Positions 10,965 to 19,897 of a DNA stretch of 64,000 bases are shown piece after piece; positions within the stretch are counted from its first letter, which is position 1, and each line of letters begins with the position of its first letter. Source of the stretch: Streptomyces sp. B21-083 (GTDB taxonomy: Bacteria; Actinomycetota; Actinomycetes; Streptomycetales; Streptomycetaceae); NCBI RefSeq assembly GCF_036898825.1, contig NZ_JARUND010000001.1, positions 1,984,001 to 2,048,000 on the forward strand, in the 5' to 3' direction. The translations under genes and the position numbers were made by a program. The notes under the pieces are model-generated. The model saw only the letters and a program-made list of their open reading frames with translations. It made no database searches and was not told the DNA's origin.

Positions 10965-11603
10965 ATGCCTTTACCAAGGTTTGCCTCGCGATCCCGGCCC
11001 TCCCAGTCGAACCGATTTTCCGCCGGAGGTCCGGCGGTTCTCACACGGGAAAACGGGGTATCGGCACCACGCATCGCCGGAGTGGACGTTGCCCGCGGCC
11101 TCGCCCTGCTCGGGATGTTCTCCGTGCACGTCTTCGGTGCGTTCGAGCCCGCCGAGTCACCGACGGTGGCCTGGCAGTTGGCGGGCGGCCGGTCCTCGGC
11201 GACCTTCGCACTGGTGGCCGGGGTCGGCCTGGCCTTCACCACCGGCGGCCGTACGCCCCGGGTCGGCCGCGGCTCACTCGCCGCCGTCACCGCCCGGGCG
11301 CTGACCGTCGGTGTGATCGGGCTGCTGCTGGGCTACGCCGCCGACGCGGGCGACCTCGGCGTCGACGTCATCCTCGTCTTCTACGCCCTGCTGTTCCTGC
11401 TCGCCCTGCCCCTGCTGACCCTGCGGGCACGGACCCTGGGCTGCGTCGCCCTCGCTCTGGGCGTGGTCGCGCCGTTCCTCGTCCACATTCTGCGGGGGGT
11501 GCTGCCCGAACCCGCCTTCGACGGTGATCCGACGCTCCAGGACGTGGCCACCGACCCGGCAGGCCTCCTCGGCGATCTTCTCGTCCACGGGAGGTCCTGG
11601 TAG
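10965..11603 (+). CDS. short HGSNAT/DUF418-like membrane protein, probably truncated
   Basis: A 212-residue membrane protein. From about residue 37, RIAGVDVARGLALLGMFSVHVFG matches the opening of the heparan-alpha-glucosaminide acetyltransferase/DUF418-type family, and about five hydrophobic helices follow. Relatives usually have about 350-420 residues and 10-11 helices. Here the protein stops after DLLVHGRSW, where others continue with DLL.TG.YP, so the C-terminal half is missing. GGAG six bases before ATG 10965 supports the start. A 3' hairpin follows. It lies immediately before the Dap/poly(amino acid) operon, so the truncation may mark that cluster's boundary. Confidence 0.7.
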   Translation: MPLPRFASRSRPSQSNRFSAGGPAVLTRENGVSAPRIAGVDVARGLALLGMFSVHVFGAFEPAESPTVAWQLAGGRSSATFALVAGVGLAFTTGGRTPRVGRGSLAAVTARALTVGVIGLLLGYAADAGDLGVDVILVFYALLFLLALPLLTLRARTLGCVALALGVVAPFLVHILRGVLPEPAFDGDPTLQDVATDPAGLLGDLLVHGRSW

Positions 11604-11780: not shown

Positions 11781-14354
11781 GTGGGGGGAAAAGTGGGGGG
11801 AAATCCGATCGAGTTGGCGTCCGTACCGCCGACCGATCCGACCAGGCACACGTCCGGCGCCGGGGGCGGCACCGAACGGATCCTCGCCGAGGTGCTCGCG
11901 GGTGTCGTGAAGAGCGACCACATCCCGCTGGACAGCCACTTCTTCGACGATCTCGGCGCCAACTCGCTGGTCATGGCGCACTTCTGCGCCCGGGTCAGGA
12001 AGCGCGACGATCTGCCGTCGGTGTCGATGAAGGACGTGTACGGCCATCCGACGATCCGGAGTCTGGCGGCGGCGCTGACCGACGCCCCGACCGAGGCGCC
12101 CGTCGCACCGCCGGCCGAGGCCCCGGCGCCCGGCAGCACCTCGCGCTATGTCCTGTGCGGGGCAGCGCAGTTGCTGATCTTCGCCGCGTACTGTTTCCTC
12201 GCCGGGCTCGTCACGGTCGATGGCTACCAGTGGATCAGCGCCGGTTCGGGGGCCGTTGACGTCTATCTGCGGTCGGTCGTGTTCGGCGGCGCCGTGTTCG
12301 CCGGGATGTGCGTGCTGCCGGTGGTCGCCAAGTGGGTGCTGGTCGGCCGGTGGCAGGTGACCGAGTTCCCCGTCTGGGGTCTCGCCTATCTGCGCTTCTG
12401 GACGGTCAGGGCCCTGCTGCACGCCAACCCGATGCGCCTGTTCGCCGGCAACCCGCTCTACGTGCTCTACCTGCGGGCGCTCGGTGCGCGGATCGGCAAG
12501 GGCGTCACGATCCTCTCCCCCGCCCTCCCGGTCTGCACCGACCTGCTCACGGTCGGCGCGAACACGGTCATCCGCAAGGACTCCTACTTCCTGTGCTACC
12601 GGGTCGTCGCCGGACGCGTCCGGACCGGTCCGGTCACTCTCGGCAGGAACGTCCACGTCGGTGAGAAGACCGTCCTCGACATCGGTACGTCGATGGGCGA
12701 CGGGTCGCAACTCGGTCACGCCTCCGCGCTGTTCGAGGGCCAGACAGTGCCTGCGGGTCTGCGCCGGCACGGCTCGCCCGCGCAGCCCACGGACGTGGAC
12801 TACGTACGGATCCCCGAGGCCCACTGCTCCACCGTCCGACGGGCCGCCTACGGCTTCGTGAGCCTCCTCCAACTCCTGCTGGTGTACGTGCCGTTGGCGG
12901 CCGGTGGCGGGTTCCTGCTGCTCGACCTGGCACCCCGCCTCAAGGCACTGGTCGACCCGGACCTGGCCGACCTGACCTCCGTCCGCTTCTACGCCGAAGC
13001 CGTGGGCCTGTCCCTGGCACTCTTCGGCGCCGGGATCGTCGTCGGAGCCGTGACCGTGTCCGTGGTCCCCCGGCTGCTGAACCTGGCGATCCGGCCCGGC
13101 CAGGTCTATCCGCTGTACGGCCCGCACTACTCGGCGCAGCGGGCCGTCGCCCGTCTGACCAACCTCAAGTTCTTCAAGTGGCTGTGCGGCGACAGCTCGT
13201 TCATCGTCCACTATCTGCGGGCCATCGGTTACGACCTCTCGCACGTCGAACAGACCGGCTCCAACTTCGGTACAGAGGTGGGGCACGAGAACCCGTACCT
13301 GGTCTCCGTGGGCCGCGGCACGATGGTCGCGGACGGGCTGTCGGTCCTCAACGCCGACTACTCCGCCACCTCCTTCCGCGTCTCGCGGGCGTCGATCGGA
13401 GCGCACAGCTTCCTCGGCAACCACATCGCGTACCCCGCCGGGGGCCGCACCGGTGAGAACGTGCTCCTCGCGACCAAGGTGATGGTGCCGCTCGACGGCG
13501 AACTGCGCGAGAACGTCGGCCTGTTGGGCTCACCCTCCTTCGAGATCCCACGGTCGGTGGAGCGCGACAGCAGCTTCGACCATCTCCGTGAGGGCGACGA
13601 GTCGCAGCGCCGGCTCGCCGCGAAGAACCGCTACAACCTGCGCTCGATGGGCCTGTTCCTGTTCGTCCGCTGGCTGCACTCCCTCCTCCTGACGGTGCTC
13701 GGCTTCGCCGCCCTCGCCGTCCACGGCACACACGGCGTAGCCGCCGGCGCGCTGGTCGGCGCCTCCCTGGTCCTCGGGCTCGCGCTCACCGCCGGGTACT
13801 ACGTGCTGGTCGAGCGGCTCATCACCCGGTTCCGGCGGCTGGTACCACGGTTGGTGTCCATCTACGACCCGCACTTCTGGTGGCAGGAACGACTGTGGAA
13901 GGTGCCCGTCGACTTCCTCGTCGTGTTCAACGGGACGCCGTTCAAGAACCTCCTGTGGCGGCTGATGGGCGTCCGCGTCGGACGCCGGGTCTTCGACGAC
14001 GGCGCCGTCATCACCGAGCGCACACTCACCACGATCGGCGACGACTGCACGCTCGGCGCCCACAGCAAGATCCAGGCCCACTCGCAGGAGGACGGCACCT
14101 ACAAGTCCGACCACATCGTCCTCGGCGCGGGCGTCACGCTCGGCACCGGCGCACTCGTCCACTACGGCGTGACGATGGGCGACGGCTCCCAACTCGCCCC
14201 GGACTCCTTCCTGATGAAGGGCGAGGACGTGCCGTGCCTGGCCCGCTGGGGCGGCAACCCGGCGGTGGCCCTGCGCAGCGACCAGATCGCACCCGGCACG
14301 GACAACACGCACATCGCACGCATCGCACCGACAGCAACGGGGGCAGTCCTGTGA
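11781..14354 (+). CDS. carrier + Pls/PosA-type tandem membrane condensation protein
   Basis: An 857-residue protein resembling the C-terminal part of epsilon-poly-L-lysine synthetase (Pls/PosA-type NRPS). Residues 30-100 form a peptidyl-carrier domain with phosphopantetheine Ser62 in DDLGANSL. Six membrane helices lie near 123-145, 165-190, 357-382, 407-432, 624-648 and 652-678. They separate three soluble repeats (about 195-345, 445-595, 690-845) with left-handed hexapeptide-like stretches, for example IGKGVTILSP, IGAHSFLGNHIAY and IVLGAGVTLGTGALVHYG. In Pls such tandem domains catalyse iterative amide formation between free and carrier-bound monomer. Here the adenylation domain is absent and supplied by the next gene, whose GTG overlaps this stop by four bases. 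GTG 11781 has GGGAG upstream; GTG 11793 is an alternative. Confidence 0.88.
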   Translation: MGGKVGGNPIELASVPPTDPTRHTSGAGGGTERILAEVLAGVVKSDHIPLDSHFFDDLGANSLVMAHFCARVRKRDDLPSVSMKDVYGHPTIRSLAAALTDAPTEAPVAPPAEAPAPGSTSRYVLCGAAQLLIFAAYCFLAGLVTVDGYQWISAGSGAVDVYLRSVVFGGAVFAGMCVLPVVAKWVLVGRWQVTEFPVWGLAYLRFWTVRALLHANPMRLFAGNPLYVLYLRALGARIGKGVTILSPALPVCTDLLTVGANTVIRKDSYFLCYRVVAGRVRTGPVTLGRNVHVGEKTVLDIGTSMGDGSQLGHASALFEGQTVPAGLRRHGSPAQPTDVDYVRIPEAHCSTVRRAAYGFVSLLQLLLVYVPLAAGGGFLLLDLAPRLKALVDPDLADLTSVRFYAEAVGLSLALFGAGIVVGAVTVSVVPRLLNLAIRPGQVYPLYGPHYSAQRAVARLTNLKFFKWLCGDSSFIVHYLRAIGYDLSHVEQTGSNFGTEVGHENPYLVSVGRGTMVADGLSVLNADYSATSFRVSRASIGAHSFLGNHIAYPAGGRTGENVLLATKVMVPLDGELRENVGLLGSPSFEIPRSVERDSSFDHLREGDESQRRLAAKNRYNLRSMGLFLFVRWLHSLLLTVLGFAALAVHGTHGVAAGALVGASLVLGLALTAGYYVLVERLITRFRRLVPRLVSIYDPHFWWQERLWKVPVDFLVVFNGTPFKNLLWRLMGVRVGRRVFDDGAVITERTLTTIGDDCTLGAHSKIQAHSQEDGTYKSDHIVLGAGVTLGTGALVHYGVTMGDGSQLAPDSFLMKGEDVPCLARWGGNPAVALRSDQIAPGTDNTHIARIAPTATGAVL

Positions 14355-16693
14355 ACACCATTCCACGCTGGACATCCGACCAGGCGCCGGGCACGCCCGA
14401 GCAGGCGCGGTACGCGTCGTACGAAGTCCCGCTCGACGCCGGTCTGTTGAGGTCGGCCTCGTTCGAGTCCGCGCTGCTCGCCGCGCACGCCAAGGTCCTC
14501 GCCATGCTCTCCGGGGAGCGGGAGGTCACCACCGGGTACGTGGCGGTGAAGGGCGAACGGCCCGTGGCCCGCCGGATGGTGGTCGGCCCCGGCTCCTGGC
14601 GGGAGCTGCTGGCGCTGACGGACCTCGCCGACGAGCCGGACAAAGCGTTGTACGAGACCGTGCTCGACCCGCACGGCGGTGAACCCGGCGAACCCGGCGA
14701 ACCCGGAGCCGACGGCACCGTGCTGCACGTGAGCGTCGGCGAGCACACCCTGCGGGTGCACCACCGCACCGATGTCCTCGACGCCGGCGCCGCCGCCCGG
14801 ATCGCCGGCTACCACCTCACCGCGCTTTCCCTGATGACCGCCGAACCGGACGCCGACCACGAACGGCACAGTCTGCTGTCGGAAGACGAACTCGCCTTCC
14901 AGCTCCACGGGTTGGCAGGTCCGGACCGTGAACTCCCGGACCGACGGGTGCACGAGCTGTTCGAGGAGCGGGTGCGCAAGCACCCGGACGCGGTCGCGGC
15001 CGTGCAGGGTGGAACGGAGTGGACCTACCGGCAGCTCAACTCCCGGGCGAACCAGCTCGGTCGGGCTCTGCTGGCCCGGGGGCTGACCCGCGAGGGTGTC
15101 GTCGCCGTGGTCACCGAGCGCAACCTCGACTGGATGGCCGCCGTGCTCGGCGTGCTCAAGGCGGGCGGTGTCTATCTGCCGGTGGAGCCGCACTTCCCGG
15201 CCGAGCGCATCGCCGCCACCCTGACCCGCGCCGAGTGCGCGTTCGTCGTCACGGAACACGGCAGCACCACGACGCTCGACGGCACGGGCCTGCACGTACC
15301 GAGACTGTACGTCGACGAGATCCGGGCGGAAGGGCACGCCGACGACGACCTCGGGGTGGGGGTCGGCGCGGATCAACTGGCGTACATCTACTTCACCTCC
15401 GGGTCGACCGGTGAGCCCAAGGGCGCGATGTGCGAGCACGCGGGCTTCGTCAACCACGTCCTCGCCAAACTGGAGGATCTCGACGTCGGCGAGGGACAGG
15501 TGGTCGCGCAGACCGCTCCCCAGTGCTTCGACATCTCACTGTGGCAGCTGGTGTCCGCGCTGCTCGTCGGCGGCCGGACCCTGCTGGTCGCGCAGGACGT
15601 GATCCTGGACGTGCCCCGGTTCGTGGACACGATCGTGGACGGCGAGGTCAACGTGCTCCAGATCGTGCCGTCGTATCTCGAAGCCGTACTGGCCGAGTTG
15701 GAACGGCGTCCGCGCCAACTGCCCGCACTGCACTGCGTGTCCGTCACCGGTGAGGCGGTCAAGCGGGAGCTGGTGCAGCGCTGGTTCGCCGCCCAGCCCA
15801 GCATCAGGGTCGCCAACGCCTATGGTCTGACCGAGACTTCGGACGACACCAACCACGAGGTGATGGACCGGGTGCCGGACGGGTCCCGCGTCCCGCTCGG
15901 CCGGCCCGTGCGCAACGTACGCGTGTACGTCGTCGACGAACACCTCGCGCCCGTGCCGCTCGGGGCGCCCGGGGAGATCGTGTTCTCCGGGGTGTGCGTC
16001 GGGCGCGGATATGTCAACGACCCCGAGCGCACGGCGGCGGCGTTCACCCTGAACCCGTACCGGCCCGGTGAGCGGCTCTACCGCAGCGGTGACCACGGTC
16101 GCTGGCTGCCCGACGGCAAACTGGAGTTCCTCGGGCGCCGGGACACCCAGGTCAAACTGCGGGGCTTCCGCATCGAGATCGGCGAGATCGAGAACGCGCT
16201 GCTGCGGGTGCCCGGGGTCCGGGACGGCGCCGTGGTGGTCGTGCGGGGCGCGCGACTGGCGGCGTTCTGCACCGGCGCCGAACTCACCTCCGTACAGGCC
16301 CGGTTGGCGGAGTCGCTGCCCGCGTACATGGTCCCGGCGGCCGTGCACTGGCGGGAGCGGTTGCCACTCACCGCCAACGGCAAGACCGACCGCAGGACCC
16401 TCACCGCTCTCGCGGAGGAACTCGCCTCCGCCGAGGAAGGTGCCGGGGACGGCCTGCGGGGGCCGGAGACCGCCGGGGAGCGGCGCCTGGCCGTCGCCTG
16501 GGCCGAGGTGCTCGGCGTACCGGCGGACCGGGTCGGCCGGTACGACCACTTCTTCGACCGCGGCGGCACCTCGCTGTCGGCTGTCCGGCTCGCGATCGCC
16601 CTGAACCGGGCGATCACCCTCAAGGACGTCGTCCGCCATCCGGTCCTCGCGGACCTGGCCGAGCAGCTCGACACGCCGGCCGCGACCGCCTGA
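14351..16693 (+). CDS. NRPS adenylation-carrier protein for a basic amino acid (Dap predicted)
   Basis: A 780-residue protein. Residues about 1-190 look like a decayed C-terminal piece of a condensation domain (LRVHHRTDVLDAGAAARIAGYH). The adenylation domain (about 200-690) has its motifs intact: YFTSGSTGEPKG, CFDISLW, NAYGLTET, YRSGDHGRWLPDG, GRRDTQVKLRGFRIE, LTANGKTDRR. The carrier domain has FFDRGGTSL with Ser741. Hand alignment to GrsA numbering gives specificity residues D-I-W-Q-S-T-A-D-D-K, whose two acidic residues in the pocket suit a substrate with a second amino group. Together with sbnA/sbnB homologues downstream, the predicted monomer is L-2,3-diaminopropionate. A 9-bp in-frame repeat encodes GEPGEPGEPG near residue 112. 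Coupled to the gene upstream by a GTGA overlap. Confidence 0.88.
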   Translation: MNTIPRWTSDQAPGTPEQARYASYEVPLDAGLLRSASFESALLAAHAKVLAMLSGEREVTTGYVAVKGERPVARRMVVGPGSWRELLALTDLADEPDKALYETVLDPHGGEPGEPGEPGADGTVLHVSVGEHTLRVHHRTDVLDAGAAARIAGYHLTALSLMTAEPDADHERHSLLSEDELAFQLHGLAGPDRELPDRRVHELFEERVRKHPDAVAAVQGGTEWTYRQLNSRANQLGRALLARGLTREGVVAVVTERNLDWMAAVLGVLKAGGVYLPVEPHFPAERIAATLTRAECAFVVTEHGSTTTLDGTGLHVPRLYVDEIRAEGHADDDLGVGVGADQLAYIYFTSGSTGEPKGAMCEHAGFVNHVLAKLEDLDVGEGQVVAQTAPQCFDISLWQLVSALLVGGRTLLVAQDVILDVPRFVDTIVDGEVNVLQIVPSYLEAVLAELERRPRQLPALHCVSVTGEAVKRELVQRWFAAQPSIRVANAYGLTETSDDTNHEVMDRVPDGSRVPLGRPVRNVRVYVVDEHLAPVPLGAPGEIVFSGVCVGRGYVNDPERTAAAFTLNPYRPGERLYRSGDHGRWLPDGKLEFLGRRDTQVKLRGFRIEIGEIENALLRVPGVRDGAVVVVRGARLAAFCTGAELTSVQARLAESLPAYMVPAAVHWRERLPLTANGKTDRRTLTALAEELASAEEGAGDGLRGPETAGERRLAVAWAEVLGVPADRVGRYDHFFDRGGTSLSAVRLAIALNRAITLKDVVRHPVLADLAEQLDTPAATA

Positions 16694-16729
16694 CGACGGA
16701 CGCGCCGCCACCCCGAAAGGAACGACACC

Positions 16730-17770
16730 ATGACACTCTCGTCCGCTTCGCCGACATCGACTCCCCCGCCCCGGGCGGCACTTCCCGGCATCGAGCTGCT
16801 CCCCGGCCGGCCCCCCACCCTGCGCACCCCGCCCGTCACCGACGCGGCGCAGTGGGCGGGCGCCCACCGGGACGCGCTGCGGGCGGCCGTCGCCGAGCAC
16901 GGCTCGCTTCTGGTGCGCGGCCTCGGCCTGCACGAGCCCGCCGCGACCGGCGCCGTGCTGCGGCGGCTGGCCGGCGGCCTGATGAGCGACCAGGAGGCCT
17001 TCGCACCCCGGCGGCGGTACGCCGACGGCGTGTACTCGTCCTCCAAGTGGCCGCCGAACCAGCCGATGTGCATGCACCACGAGCTGAGCTACGCGCTGGA
17101 GTTCCCCGGTCTGCTGATGTTCGCCTGCCTCGAAGCGCCCGCCGAGGGCGGCGCGACCGGAGTGGCCGACTCAGCCGCCGTACTCGACGCGCTGCCCGCC
17201 GAACTCGTCCAACGCTTCGAGCAGGAGGGCTGGTTGCTCACCCGGACGTTCAACGACGAGATAGGGGCGACGGTCGCCGAGGCGTTCGGCACCTCCGACC
17301 GGGCCTCGGTCGAACGCTACTGCCGGGCCCACGCCATCGAGTTCACCTGGGAACCGGACGGTTCTCTGCGCACCCGCCAGCGCCGCGGCGCCGTCCTGCG
17401 TCACCCGGTCACCGGCCACCGCTGCTGGTTCAACCAGATCGCGTTCCTCAACGAGTGGACGATGGACCCGGAGGTCCACGAGTACCTGGTCGACGTGTAC
17501 GGCGCCGACGGCCTCCCCTTCAACACCCGCTACGGCAACGGCGATCCGATCGGCCTGGACGTCGTCCAGACCCTCAACGAGGCGTACGAGGCGCACACCG
17601 TGCGCGAACCGTGGCGTAGCGGCGATCTGCTGCTCGTCGACAACATCCGTACGGCGCACAGCCGCGAGCCCTTCGAGGGGCCCCGCGAGGTCCTCGCCGC
17701 CCTGGCCGACCCGGTCCGCCGCACCGACTCGACCGGCTCCGCCGTCTCCTCCGAAGGGACAGCCTCATGA
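16730..17770 (+). CDS. TauD/SyrP-like Fe(II)/2-oxoglutarate dioxygenase
   Basis: A 346-residue clavaminate-synthase-like dioxygenase. The iron-binding facial triad appears as H116-x-E118 in MHHELSYA and H310 in NIRTAHSREPFEGPRE, with R319 placed to hold 2-oxoglutarate. The variant HxE rather than HxD and the overall layout are like SyrP, which hydroxylates a carrier-bound aspartate in syringomycin assembly. AAAGGA precedes ATG 16730. The stop overlaps the SbnB start (ATGA), tying it to Dap supply. Likely role, by inference: hydroxylation of Dap while bound to the carrier, or of a precursor or product. Hydroxylation site and timing are unknown. Confidence 0.85.
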   Translation: MTLSSASPTSTPPPRAALPGIELLPGRPPTLRTPPVTDAAQWAGAHRDALRAAVAEHGSLLVRGLGLHEPAATGAVLRRLAGGLMSDQEAFAPRRRYADGVYSSSKWPPNQPMCMHHELSYALEFPGLLMFACLEAPAEGGATGVADSAAVLDALPAELVQRFEQEGWLLTRTFNDEIGATVAEAFGTSDRASVERYCRAHAIEFTWEPDGSLRTRQRRGAVLRHPVTGHRCWFNQIAFLNEWTMDPEVHEYLVDVYGADGLPFNTRYGNGDPIGLDVVQTLNEAYEAHTVREPWRSGDLLLVDNIRTAHSREPFEGPREVLAALADPVRRTDSTGSAVSSEGTAS

Positions 17771-18822
17771 CCACGTACAACTCAGAGCAGTCGGCCCCGC
17801 TCACCGTCCCGCCGTTCTCGGTCATCTCCGGTGATCAGGTCCAACAGGCCCTACAGGGAAGGGAGTCGGACGTCGTCGACCTGGTCGAGGCGGTGTACCG
17901 GCTGCACGGCGCCGGCGACTCGGTGAACCCGCCCTCGTACTTCCTGCGGTTCCCGGACCGTCCGTCGTCGCGGATCATCGCACTGCCCGCGTCGATCGGC
18001 GGGGACGTGCACGTGGACGGGCTGAAGTGGGTCTCCAGTTTCCCGGCGAACGTGGCCGCCGGGATCCCGCGGGCGTCGGCCGTGCTGATCCTCAACGACC
18101 ACGACACGGGCTATCCGTTCGCCTGTCTGGAGAGCTCCATCATCAGCGCGTCCCGTACGGCGGCCTCGGCGGCGCTGGCCGCCGACCGGCTGAGCCGGGG
18201 ACGCGCCCGGCCGACCCGGGTGGGGTTCGTCGGGACGGGGCTCATCGCCCGCTACATCCACACCTATCTGGCCGCCACCGGCTGGGAGTTCGACGAGACG
18301 GGCGTGTACGACCTGTCCGCCGACAGCGCGGCCGGCTTCCGGGGCTACCTGGAACGGTCGGCCGGCGGCGGCAAGGTCACCGTGCACGACAGCGCCGAAC
18401 AACTCGTCAGGGCAAGCGACTTGCTGGTGTTCGCCACCGTCGCCGCGAAACCGCACATCCACGACGTGTCGTGGTTCGACCACCATCCGCTCGTCCTGCA
18501 CGTCTCGTTGCGTGACCTCGCGCCCGAGATCCTGCTCGCCTCGGCGAACTACGTCGACGACGTCGAGCACTGTCTGAAGGCTGAGACCTCTCCGCACCTC
18601 GCCGAACAGCGCACCGGCGGGCGTGAGTTCATCGACGGCACGCTCGACGACGTACTCACCGGCCGCACCGGGGTCCCGGTGGACCGGCCGGTGGTGTTCT
18701 CGCCCTTCGGTCTCGGAGTGCTCGACCTCGCCGTCGGCAGGTTCGTCCACGACGAGGTGGCCCGCCGGGGCGAACTGCGTGTCGTCGACGGCTTCTTCCA
18801 CGAACTGCGGCGGCACGGCTGA
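17767..18822 (+). CDS. sbnB: SbnB-like N-(carboxyethyl-amino) glutamate dehydrogenase for Dap synthesis
   Basis: A 351-residue member of the ornithine cyclodeaminase/mu-crystallin fold, closest in pattern to SbnB. A Rossmann motif (RVGFVGTGLIARYIH, about 152-166) binds NAD. The substrate half contains ALPASIGGDVHVDGLKWVSSFPANVAAG and NDHDTGYPFACLESSIISASRTAA, as in family members. In staphyloferrin B and zwittermicin pathways SbnB oxidatively cleaves N-(1-amino-1-carboxy-2-ethyl)-glutamate, made by SbnA, to L-Dap and 2-oxoglutarate. That 2-oxoglutarate is also the co-substrate of the dioxygenase encoded just upstream. ATGA overlap with that gene supports one operon. Confidence 0.9.
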   Translation: MTTYNSEQSAPLTVPPFSVISGDQVQQALQGRESDVVDLVEAVYRLHGAGDSVNPPSYFLRFPDRPSSRIIALPASIGGDVHVDGLKWVSSFPANVAAGIPRASAVLILNDHDTGYPFACLESSIISASRTAASAALAADRLSRGRARPTRVGFVGTGLIARYIHTYLAATGWEFDETGVYDLSADSAAGFRGYLERSAGGGKVTVHDSAEQLVRASDLLVFATVAAKPHIHDVSWFDHHPLVLHVSLRDLAPEILLASANYVDDVEHCLKAETSPHLAEQRTGGREFIDGTLDDVLTGRTGVPVDRPVVFSPFGLGVLDLAVGRFVHDEVARRGELRVVDGFFHELRRHG

Positions 18823-18901
18823 CCTCTCCAGGGGGTCGGACGCAGCATCCGTCACCGGATGCCGTGCCATGGATCAGGCGGGCCGCACACAGGGGGACAA
18901 C

Positions 18902-19897
18902 ATGCCAGTCATTTCCCAGCCGTCGGACTTCAACGAGGATGAGCTCTACGTCGACCTCCGGGCCACCGTCGGGCTCCCCGTCTTCCTGAAGTGCGAGGGC
19001 TTCAACTTCGCCGGTTCGATCAAGATGAAGGCCGCCTACGAGATGGTGACGGCCGCCGAGCGGGACGGCGGGCTGCGGCCGGGATCCGTTCTCGTGGAGT
19101 CCTCGTCGGGCAACCTGGGCGTGGCGCTCAGTGTGCTCGCGGCGAGCCGGGGCTACCGGTTCCTGTGCGTGACGGACTCGCGCTGCAACGCGCAGGCGAT
19201 CCGCCTGATGGAGGCGCTGGGCAGCCGGGTGCACGTCATCGACCAGCCCGACCTGCGCGGCGGCTTCCTGGGCGCCCGGATCGGGTACGTCCGCGCGCTG
19301 TGCGCCTCCGACGAGCGGTATGTCTGGCTCAACCAGTACACCAACCAGGGGAATTGGCGGGCCCACTACCGCACGACGGCACCGGCGATCGCCCGCCGGT
19401 TCCCGGGCCTGGACGTCCTGTTCGTCGGCGCCGGCACCACCGGCACGCTGATGGGCTGCGCGCGCTGGTTCTGGCAGTGGAACCGGCGGGTGCGGATCGT
19501 CGCCGTGGACGCGGTCGGCTCGGTCACCTTCGGGGGACCGCCGGGACCCCGGATGATCCCGGGCCTGGGCACGAGCGTACGGCCGCAGCTGCTCGACGAG
19601 TCGTACGTCGACGAGGTGATCCGCGTGGAGGAGGCGGACGCGGTGGGCGTCTGCCGCCGGCTGGCCTCCCGGGGCTTCCTGTTCGGCGGGTCCACGGGCA
19701 CGGTGATCAGCGGGGCGACGCAGTGGCTGGCCCGGCACGACGGCCGCGACCTCACGGCAGTGGCGATCGCCCCGGACCTCGGCGAGCGCTACCTCGACAC
19801 GGTGTACCACCCGGGGTGGCTGGAGGCCCACCAGGGCGAGCAGGACATGACTCCCCTGACCGCGGACGAACTGGCGGTCCTCTCCCGGCCGGCGTGA
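18902..19897 (+). CDS. sbnA: SbnA-like PLP enzyme for Dap synthesis
   Basis: A 331-residue beta-family PLP enzyme (cysteine-synthase fold) of the SbnA group. KCEGFNFAGSIKMKAA carries the PLP lysine, ESSSGNLGVALS binds the substrate carboxylate, and GAGTTGTLMG is the phosphate-binding loop. SbnA condenses O-phospho-L-serine with L-glutamate to give the intermediate cleaved by SbnB. The N-terminus is short for the family but begins within the normal fold at YVDLRATVG. ATG 18902 has AGGGGG six bases upstream; an upstream ATG at 18869 is less likely. Spacing of 79 nt from sbnB, same strand. Last gene of the proposed poly-Dap operon. Confidence 0.9.
   Translation: MPVISQPSDFNEDELYVDLRATVGLPVFLKCEGFNFAGSIKMKAAYEMVTAAERDGGLRPGSVLVESSSGNLGVALSVLAASRGYRFLCVTDSRCNAQAIRLMEALGSRVHVIDQPDLRGGFLGARIGYVRALCASDERYVWLNQYTNQGNWRAHYRTTAPAIARRFPGLDVLFVGAGTTGTLMGCARWFWQWNRRVRIVAVDAVGSVTFGGPPGPRMIPGLGTSVRPQLLDESYVDEVIRVEEADAVGVCRRLASRGFLFGGSTGTVISGATQWLARHDGRDLTAVAIAPDLGERYLDTVYHPGWLEAHQGEQDMTPLTADELAVLSRPA

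Follow-up and report, generated by a model that had tools for sequence, protein, structure and literature searches.

Five coupled genes in Streptomyces sp. B21-083 probably encode, at a likelihood that we put near 0.6, a two-component Pls-type synthetase for a polymer or oligomer of L-2,3-diaminopropionate (Dap), possibly in oxidised form. The genes lie on the + strand at positions 11781–19897 of the window, the 64,000-nt stretch analysed here (NZ_JARUND010000001.1, 1,984,001–2,048,000), to which all coordinates refer. In order, they encode a carrier fused to a membrane condensation protein (T-M), an adenylation-carrier protein (A-T), a TauD-type dioxygenase, SbnB and SbnA:

11781..14354, + strand: gene 1 (857 aa, GTG start), carrier (T) fused to a Pls/PosA-type membrane condensation protein (T-M)
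11883..12077, + strand: gene 1 carrier domain (PF00550, residues 35–99) with the pantetheine Ser62 (motif LGANSL)
12156..14264, + strand: Pls/PosA terminal domain, with C1, C2 and C3 as its soluble domains and TM helices in three pairs (TIGR02353, model)
14351..14935, + strand: N-terminal part of gene 2, putative relic of a condensation-domain C-lobe (alignment; sub-cut-off PF00668 matches in relatives)
14351..16693, + strand: gene 2, [C-lobe relic]-A-T, predicted to activate Dap, 780 aa (AMP-binding, PP-binding; code DIWSSTADDK)
16730..17770, + strand: gene 3, Fe(II)/2-oxoglutarate (2OG) dioxygenase, TauD/SyrP-like, 346 aa (PF02668, 153 bits)
17767..18822, + strand: gene 4, SbnB, Dap biosynthesis dehydrogenase (TIGR03944, 417 bits)
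18902..19897, + strand: gene 5, SbnA, PLP-dependent, Dap biosynthesis (TIGR03945, 386 bits)

The first-pass annotation had listed all five reading frames correctly but overlooked the C-lobe relic; the overlaps that it reported between the starts at 14351 and 17767 and the preceding stops are seen in the ORF coordinates. SbnA most likely starts at ATG 18902, which is preceded by a Shine-Dalgarno-like AGGGGGA, rather than at the earlier in-frame GTG 18623.

The product of gene 1 matches TIGR02353 over positions 2–695 of 695 with 766 bits (cut-off 423.1). As in Pls and PosA, six TM helices in three pairs divide three soluble domains. Hydropathy peaks near residues 128, 165, 362, 408, 625 and 653 form the pairs, and two weaker peaks at 242 and 779 (1.49), which also exceed the threshold of 1.4, fall inside C1 and C3. 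Long helices occupy positions matching the hydropathy peaks in an AlphaFold model of residues 31–857 (pLDDT 82.9, pTM 0.84), in which C1, C2 and C3 appear to have left-handed β-helix (hexapeptide acyltransferase) character. Foldseek matches to hexapeptide proteins span one domain, the best row having a TM-score of 0.53 by target length and 0.14 by query; in the VIA-align listing, the well-tested part of the model is residues 1–77, the carrier. A domain search of gene 1 gave no AMP-binding match, and the A domain that Pls and PosA hold in the same chain is encoded here by gene 2. The membrane domain of the split enzymes groups with poly-diaminobutyrate (poly-Dab)-type fused enzymes and not with Lys-type Pls; that of gene 1 shares 26–29% identity with Lys-code enzymes over alignments of at least 600 residues.

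The A domain of gene 2 carries the code DIWSSTADDK. Of 94 A domains at least 63% identical to it (duplicates included), 92 share this code. Among 40 SbnB loci judged to lie outside the operon, 25 yielded an A domain and 16 contained DIW[ST]xTADD; in eight of these 16, the A domains are just 36–44% identical to gene 2. Because nearly the same code recurs beside SbnB in such distant A domains, the prediction that gene 2 activates Dap, the monomer proposed earlier, is well supported at the level of sequence. The home genome has 23 A domains, of which two carry DIW[ST]xTADD, and both adjoin an SbnB. Counting against a Dap code, nine of the 25 outside loci that yielded an A domain show other codes only. 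Since Trp at position 3 and Asp at position 9 occur in Ser-type codes too, the chief alternative to Dap as substrate is serine.

The A domain of gene 2 looks like that of an ordinary NRPS module and not of a Pls-type enzyme. Excerpts of one study describe a Glu conserved in the code of all cationic homopolymer (CHPA) synthetases (PMC10522769); it stands at code position 3, where DIWSSTADDK has Trp, and positions 2 and 3 are Phe and Glu in the PDAP and PDAB enzymes of that study whereas they are Ile and Trp in gene 2. The missing Glu counts against a cationic-homopolymer reading. The earlier designation as a Pls/PosA-type synthetase is supported, although the A domain looks NRPS-like and lacks the Glu. 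The first ~195 residues of gene 2 resemble a condensation C-lobe, with stepwise shortening across the alignment of relatives. PF00668 gave no match in gene 2 of the window in the domain search, and two relatives match its positions 186–282 of 456 with 16.9 and 22.0 bits (Pfam cut-off 30.6). The N-terminus looks like an eroded C-lobe from which the catalytic N-lobe is absent. A working condensation domain was ruled out, there being only an eroding C-lobe-like stretch recognised through sub-cut-off relatives.

SbnB and SbnA are neighbours and both score above their equivalog cut-offs (327 and 350 bits, respectively), which bears out the built-in Dap pathway of the first-pass annotation. Divergent SbnA/SbnB pairs above cut-off adjoin other operon genes at two loci (L065, L074); a candidate for recruited SbnA/SbnB (L055) was discarded because its PLP enzyme scores best as a cysteine synthase. 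S. scabies has an SbnB in the vicinity of both an SbnA and an NRPS gene, according to excerpts of a study of growth with potato (PMC11479980).

The split is common rather than non-standard, as had been supposed. A survey of 121 Streptomyces genomes contained 92 Pls/PosA places, 44 split and 48 fused; the split places are spread over 39 of the 121 genomes, which excludes a sequencing or annotation artefact. All five genes are present at 37 of the 44. A dioxygenase ORF occurs at 37 of 44 split and 0 of 48 fused places (Fisher p 5e-19, a test that ignores relatedness and overstates independence because most split genes belong to a single clade). The split with the A-T gene downstream of the membrane gene, noted at first sight, recurs as a five-gene set in 54 of 80 related loci, 51 of them with the order and strand of the window, and the array appears conserved beyond chance. 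Counting against the proposed synthetase, three split T-M genes are solitary (L157, L159, L163).

Four of the five core families occur in 53–64 of the 80 loci; SbnB was scored in 37 by the gene caller used, which often placed an antisense ORF there. The upstream YihY-like gene and the downstream acyl-CoA dehydrogenase, each in only 28 of 80 loci, were rejected as cluster members, and other flanking families, named by eye, occur in fewer. As no non-core family (antisense ORFs aside) exceeds 28 of 80 loci, no exporter, regulator or release enzyme is conserved there. That absence counts against the proposed synthetase.

We found no characterised example of the split operon, and no report of its product, in the literature as available, partly in excerpts. 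It is not described in the portions consulted of PMC4668381, PMC10522769, PMC9606270, PMC8117764, PMC11479980, PMC10880069, PMC11298585 and PMC11204786, and a search found no literature joining NAPAA, diaminopropion and dioxygenase.

Gene 3 has the features expected of the dioxygenase assigned to it: a TauD-family match, H116-x-E118 and H310, which we take to be the iron triad, and R319, presumably the 2OG-binding Arg. These four residues are invariant in 32 of 32 rows and at least 99% conserved across 113 rows. An acidic iron ligand in Fe/2OG enzymes speaks against a halogenase, and E118 makes this activity unlikely for gene 3.

Where this enzyme acts separates two readings of the operon. Tentatively, and at somewhat less than even odds, the synthetase may oxidise its monomer on a dedicated trans carrier before polymerising it, yielding an oxidised (β-hydroxy, dehydro or oxo) Dap isopeptide polymer; it would have arisen through capture of a Pls-type polymerase by a building-block cassette of NRPS origin (A-T, dioxygenase, SbnB, SbnA). 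Alternatively, Dap could be polymerised unmodified and the dioxygenase act only afterwards, on the completed polymer or on one of its ends, which we consider unlikely. Dioxygenases 55–64% identical to gene 3 adjoin a Dap A-T in eight stretches without a T-M match, and at one locus in one genome (L165) T-M-C-A-T-dioxygenase forms a single open frame with the dioxygenase behind the A-T carrier; both point to the monomer on that carrier and against late action. Two further A-T/dioxygenase fusions (L064, L155) were given little weight owing to linkers that resemble read-through of an intergenic stretch. Late action is favoured by five variant loci that keep T-M and the dioxygenase and have lost the Dap A domain and SbnA/SbnB, suggesting that it can act on what T-M makes or on a different acyl group; the dioxygenase is therefore not necessarily Dap-specific. 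A β-hydroxy-Dap whose amine is free would be an unstable hemiaminal, which counts against a β-hydroxylated monomer. That a fused enzyme makes poly-Dap is already known (excerpts of PMC4668381), in line with unmodified polymerisation.

In the mechanism we propose, which includes oxidation of the monomer, SbnA and SbnB, judged by family membership, would make L-Dap inside the cell, and the A domain of gene 2 would activate it, as its code strongly suggests, and load its own carrier. The dioxygenase would then act on carrier-bound Dap, probably at Cβ, by hydroxylation or desaturation. The residue may be handed to the carrier of gene 1, or that carrier may also be loaded by the A domain. By homology with Pls, the three β-helix C domains between the TM pairs would form isopeptide bonds iteratively, and the predicted synthetase would thereby polymerise Dap.

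The A-T/dioxygenase/Dap cassette appears portable. Eight of the 40 outside SbnB loci have it but no T-M, NRPS clusters among them (such as L223, L226, L229 and L238), and the dioxygenases of these T-M-free cassettes branch outside the T-M-linked ones. Such clusters favour a different outcome, a short peptide or an oxidised Dap compound of small size, for which the membrane protein forms one or a few bonds; so do the many polar positions that differ between split and Lys-type membrane domains, each invariant within one group. We nevertheless hold this outcome to be improbable: the complete membrane domain clusters with fused synthetases of code DFETLSVVTK (probably poly-Dab), and known fused relatives make homopolymers (excerpts of PMC4668381, PMC10522769 and PMC8117764). 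Fused DFETLSVVTK synthetases fall inside the split membrane-domain group. The split arrangement may be explained by capture of an NRPS cassette: a C-A-T module with dioxygenase and Dap genes would have replaced the fused A domain of a Pls enzyme for a short diamino acid.

A comb-like polymer, in which a poly-Dap backbone bears side chains of Dap and two carriers supply the two kinds of Dap, seems the outcome least to be expected. Such a polymer is cited from a polylysine-producing Streptomyces (excerpts of PMC9606270 and PMC10522769), the operon has two carriers, and fused Pls and split T-M coexist in 19 of 121 genomes; this scheme, however, leaves the dioxygenase without a role.

To our knowledge, described Pls enzymes are single chains producing plain homopolymers. 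Nearly half of the sampled Streptomyces Pls-family places (44 of 92) are instead split, and most of these include a monomer pathway and an oxygenase. Oxidised poly-Dap, if true, would be the first tailored cationic isopeptide polymer as far as we know, from an operon widespread in Streptomyces. Confirmation would provide a route to oxidised cationic isopeptides and a natural experiment on membrane C1–C3 domains taking monomers from a separate carrier, so that polymerisation is open to T-M and A-T mixing tests. DIWSSTADDK also points to a code by which Dap-activating A domains could be recognised.

The operon shares with Pls and PosA a TIGR02353 score above cut-off, the T-M layout, six TM helices and C1–C3. 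It differs in that Pls (for ε-poly-L-lysine, used to preserve food) and PosA (for δ-poly-L-ornithine) combine A, T and M in a single polypeptide and have Lys- or Orn-type codes whose third position is Glu. In SyrP/SyrB-type NRPS tailoring, a stand-alone A-T didomain works with a carrier-dependent Fe/2OG enzyme; the present operon likewise has a separate A-T that would present an aminoacyl thioester beside a TauD-family enzyme, but its partner is a membrane homopolymer-type synthetase rather than an NRPS line. Two fused A-T-M enzymes (L169, L170) with the code DFETLSVVTK and membrane domains 51–52% identical to gene 1 are probably poly-γ-diaminobutyrate synthetases; no SbnA/SbnB or dioxygenase match lies beside either. 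A Dab aminotransferase is carried by two among the 120 relatives listed of a DFETLSVVTK enzyme, and excerpts of PMC8117764 place a transaminase gene next to a poly-L-Dab synthetase. The poly(L-diaminopropionic acid) synthetase (PDAPs) of Streptomyces albulus PD-1, as described in excerpts of PMC4668381, whose main text makes no mention of a dioxygenase, likewise ends in a Pls-type domain, where TM segments flank three soluble domains in tandem, and Dap there comes from cysteine-synthase-like and ornithine-cyclodeaminase-like enzymes. Unlike the operon in the window, PDAPs is a single 4,338-bp ORF with A, T and M fused, and its Dap genes do not lie nearby.

The first-pass annotation had placed five coupled genes at 11781..19897, and both their identities and the overlap of the starts at 14351 and 17767 with the upstream stops are borne out by ORF calls and domain matches. 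The features are as follows.

10965-11603, + strand, gene for an HGSNAT_cat-like membrane acyltransferase, lying upstream of the operon
11781-14354, + strand, gene 1 (T-M), a carrier ahead of a complete Pls/PosA terminal domain (M; TIGR02353)
14351-16693, + strand, gene 2, an A-T protein by its domain matches
Genes 3-5, + strand, TauD-family dioxygenase, SbnB and SbnA (SbnA start most likely at 18902)

A domain search of the gene 1 protein returned no A-domain match, and SbnB and SbnA both exceed their equivalog cut-offs. The 10.5-Mb source genome also carries, away from the operon, a second Pls that is fused (A-T-M in one chain) and has a Lys-type code. The HGSNAT_cat-like gene, whose family was seen in 10 of 80 comparison loci, matches a 485-aa homologue (L008:3517-4971) only at residues 50-254 and 441-485; its middle part is thus missing.

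Genome contigs were scanned with the window dioxygenase, a query that reaches close relatives only, giving 96 relatives (top named match Streptomyces turgidiscabies Car8, 97%), from which 80 loci were retained. All five genes were present, at the set thresholds, in 54 loci, Actinomadura, Actinacidiphila and Pseudonocardia among them; 51 keep the window's gene order and three have SbnA upstream on the opposite strand. The remaining 26 comprise short contigs, MAG loci in which SbnA/SbnB diverge or were not seen, five variants and two clusters without a membrane gene; they include MAGs whose assignment to Acidobacteria, Rokubacteria, Chloroflexi or Gammaproteobacteria may be wrong. Besides the five core families and overlying antisense ORFs, no gene family exceeds 28 of the 80 loci, so no gene for release, export or resistance is conserved.

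Because the dioxygenase query is biased, 121 Streptomyces genomes were searched with TIGR02353, which matched at 92 places in 66 genomes. By open-frame length, with one long frame in genome G105 (M before A) counted as split, the places divide into 44 split (39 genomes) and 48 fused (46 genomes), and both types occur in 19 genomes. The five-gene set is complete at 37 split places. Three incomplete places (L132, L135, L149) are truncated by contig ends, and three (L157, L159, L163) are T-M genes without other operon genes. The last, L156, lacks the dioxygenase and SbnB, and a matching pair lies elsewhere in the same genome: M, A-T and SbnA are near 6.37 Mb and the pair near 1.08 Mb of one chromosome. 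The break carries YTSDAADD, which we take to be an adapter-like peptide, and this arrangement is possibly a misassembly. Across the phylum, TIGR02353 matched 15 of 296 sampled genomes with an E-value of 1e-80 or lower. Of the candidates scored in a protein search with gene 1, 4,732 are relatives with an E-value of 1e-30 or lower; the 120 that were listed measure 801-908 aa, have no AMP-binding domain in their precomputed domain lists, and so look split. The split operon is real, conserved and common in Streptomyces. The first-pass view that a two-protein split is not standard agrees with the literature searched, which covered few subscription papers and yielded no description of it, but not with its frequency in the genomes.

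The dioxygenase is tied to the split type. A dioxygenase ORF of 280 aa or more accompanies 37 of 44 split places versus none of 48 fused ones (Fisher p 5e-19, uncorrected for relatedness), and tblastn finds it at 38 split places, the 37 five-gene loci plus L149. The G105 frame (L165) encodes carrier, membrane domain, C-lobe (an apparent condensation-domain relic), A, T and dioxygenase in 2,323 aa. At L064 and L155 the A-T protein is joined in frame to the dioxygenase; the linkers resemble intergenic sequence, so these joins carry little weight.

In a 62-row tree drawn from 149 distinct M domains, the split and Lys-code types form two groups, supported at 100/100 and with very long branches between them. 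Two fused enzymes, L169 and L170, nest among the split sequences as part of a nine-row set (98/97). Two of the 120 listed L170 relatives (P0221 and P0223), Pls-type synthetases of ~1,800 aa, carry a diaminobutyrate (Dab) aminotransferase domain in the same chain, so L170 probably makes poly-Dab; given its position, the split M domain is probably of the short-diamino-acid kind.

The ten Stachelhaus positions of the A domain were placed by motif. The code DIWSSTADDK was read in 92 of 94 A domains at least 63% identical to the window's (counting duplicates shared between samples). Of the 48 fused enzymes 47 could be read in this way, giving DAETIGTVV in 45 and DFETLSVVTK in two (L169 and L170). 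PMC10522769 assigns Ala-2 to Lys and Phe-2 to Dab or diaminopropionate (Dap), with Glu-3 in all such enzymes. The fused codes agree with this rule; DIWSSTADDK breaks it at Glu-3, which counts against Dap. Trp-3 and Asp-9 are found also in Ser-type codes, making Ser the main alternative substrate. Dap is nevertheless the likely substrate, as judged from recurrence of the code beside SbnB and from divergent SbnA/SbnB beside T-M, A-T and dioxygenase. Of 102 SbnB places, 40 picked as outside the operon were fetched as 20-kb stretches; an A domain was recovered at 25, with DIW[ST]xTADD at 16 and other codes only at nine. Eight of the 16 have an A domain that shares only 36-44% identity with the window's, and a stretch without a dioxygenase match; at the other eight the A domain is 60-69% and the dioxygenase 55-64% identical, without a T-M match. 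In the home genome the code occurs in two of 23 A domains found, the operon's and one ~0.2 kb past a second SbnB, with one TGA inside the matched stretch. At MAG loci L065 and L074, SbnA/SbnB only 37-57% identical to the window's, yet over the cut-off, adjoin T-M, A-T and dioxygenase. The second SbnB (L216, G000:C2:4633400-4653300) lies in an NRPS cluster whose codes read DIWTITADDK, DVWSFSLVDK, DAHPAAYVVK and DILALGVVWK, and a phosphopantetheinyl transferase gene adjoins L065 and L076.

Five variants (L044, L052, L053, L059, L068) retain M, the dioxygenase and from one to three carriers; two of these loci are truncated by the start of their contig. They have lost SbnA/SbnB, in whose place they share an acyl-CoA ligase of the TIGR03098 (exosortase-A-associated) type (760 bits in L053, the sole one tested) and a small stand-alone ACP, and their Dap A domain is gone or only a stub. 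This speaks against a strictly Dap-specific dioxygenase, which may instead take a different acyl group or work on the chain itself.

A Dap A-T/dioxygenase/SbnB/SbnA cassette without a membrane gene occurs at L220, L223, L226, L228, L229, L231, L238 and L241, and also at L073 and L083. By eye, some stretches hold a tryptophan-halogenase-like gene, type II PKS-like genes or a fatty-acyl ligase; no match to a known product was made for any of them. A phosphoglycerate-dehydrogenase-like (SerA) gene, also identified by eye, adjoins the cassette at L231, L241 and L066 and possibly supplies phosphoserine for SbnA. In a 41-row dioxygenase tree, rooted at the midpoint and with five distant sequences across the root, T-M-linked sequences share a 27-row group (89/98) with the five variants and a single Kutzneria cluster that lacks T-M; T-M was the default row label, and the contigs of L062, L072, L080 and L084 show no T-M gene. 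Cassette dioxygenases from the 40-locus sample branch outside this group, which fits a history in which a Pls polymerase of the short-diamino-acid kind captured an NRPS cassette (A-T, dioxygenase, SbnB, SbnA); the C-lobe on gene 2 would be the scar of that capture.

Dap use by the operon is well supported by these sequence comparisons, polymerisation is inferred, an oxidation step by the dioxygenase is putative, and any antimicrobial action is supposed by analogy with known polymers. NCBI names gene 1 relatives as Pls/PosA family or phosphopantetheine-binding proteins; the parts are thus already catalogued, though not characterised. PMC11479980, on proteomics of growth with potato, places the S. 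scabies SbnB homologue C9YUJ1 near SbnA and an NRPS gene, which could be the same operon. A comb-like Dap polymer is cited in PMC9606270 and PMC10522769. The poly-Dap synthetase of S. albulus PD-1, as described in PMC4668381, is a single chain with its Dap genes elsewhere, whereas the window's operon is split and has them built in.
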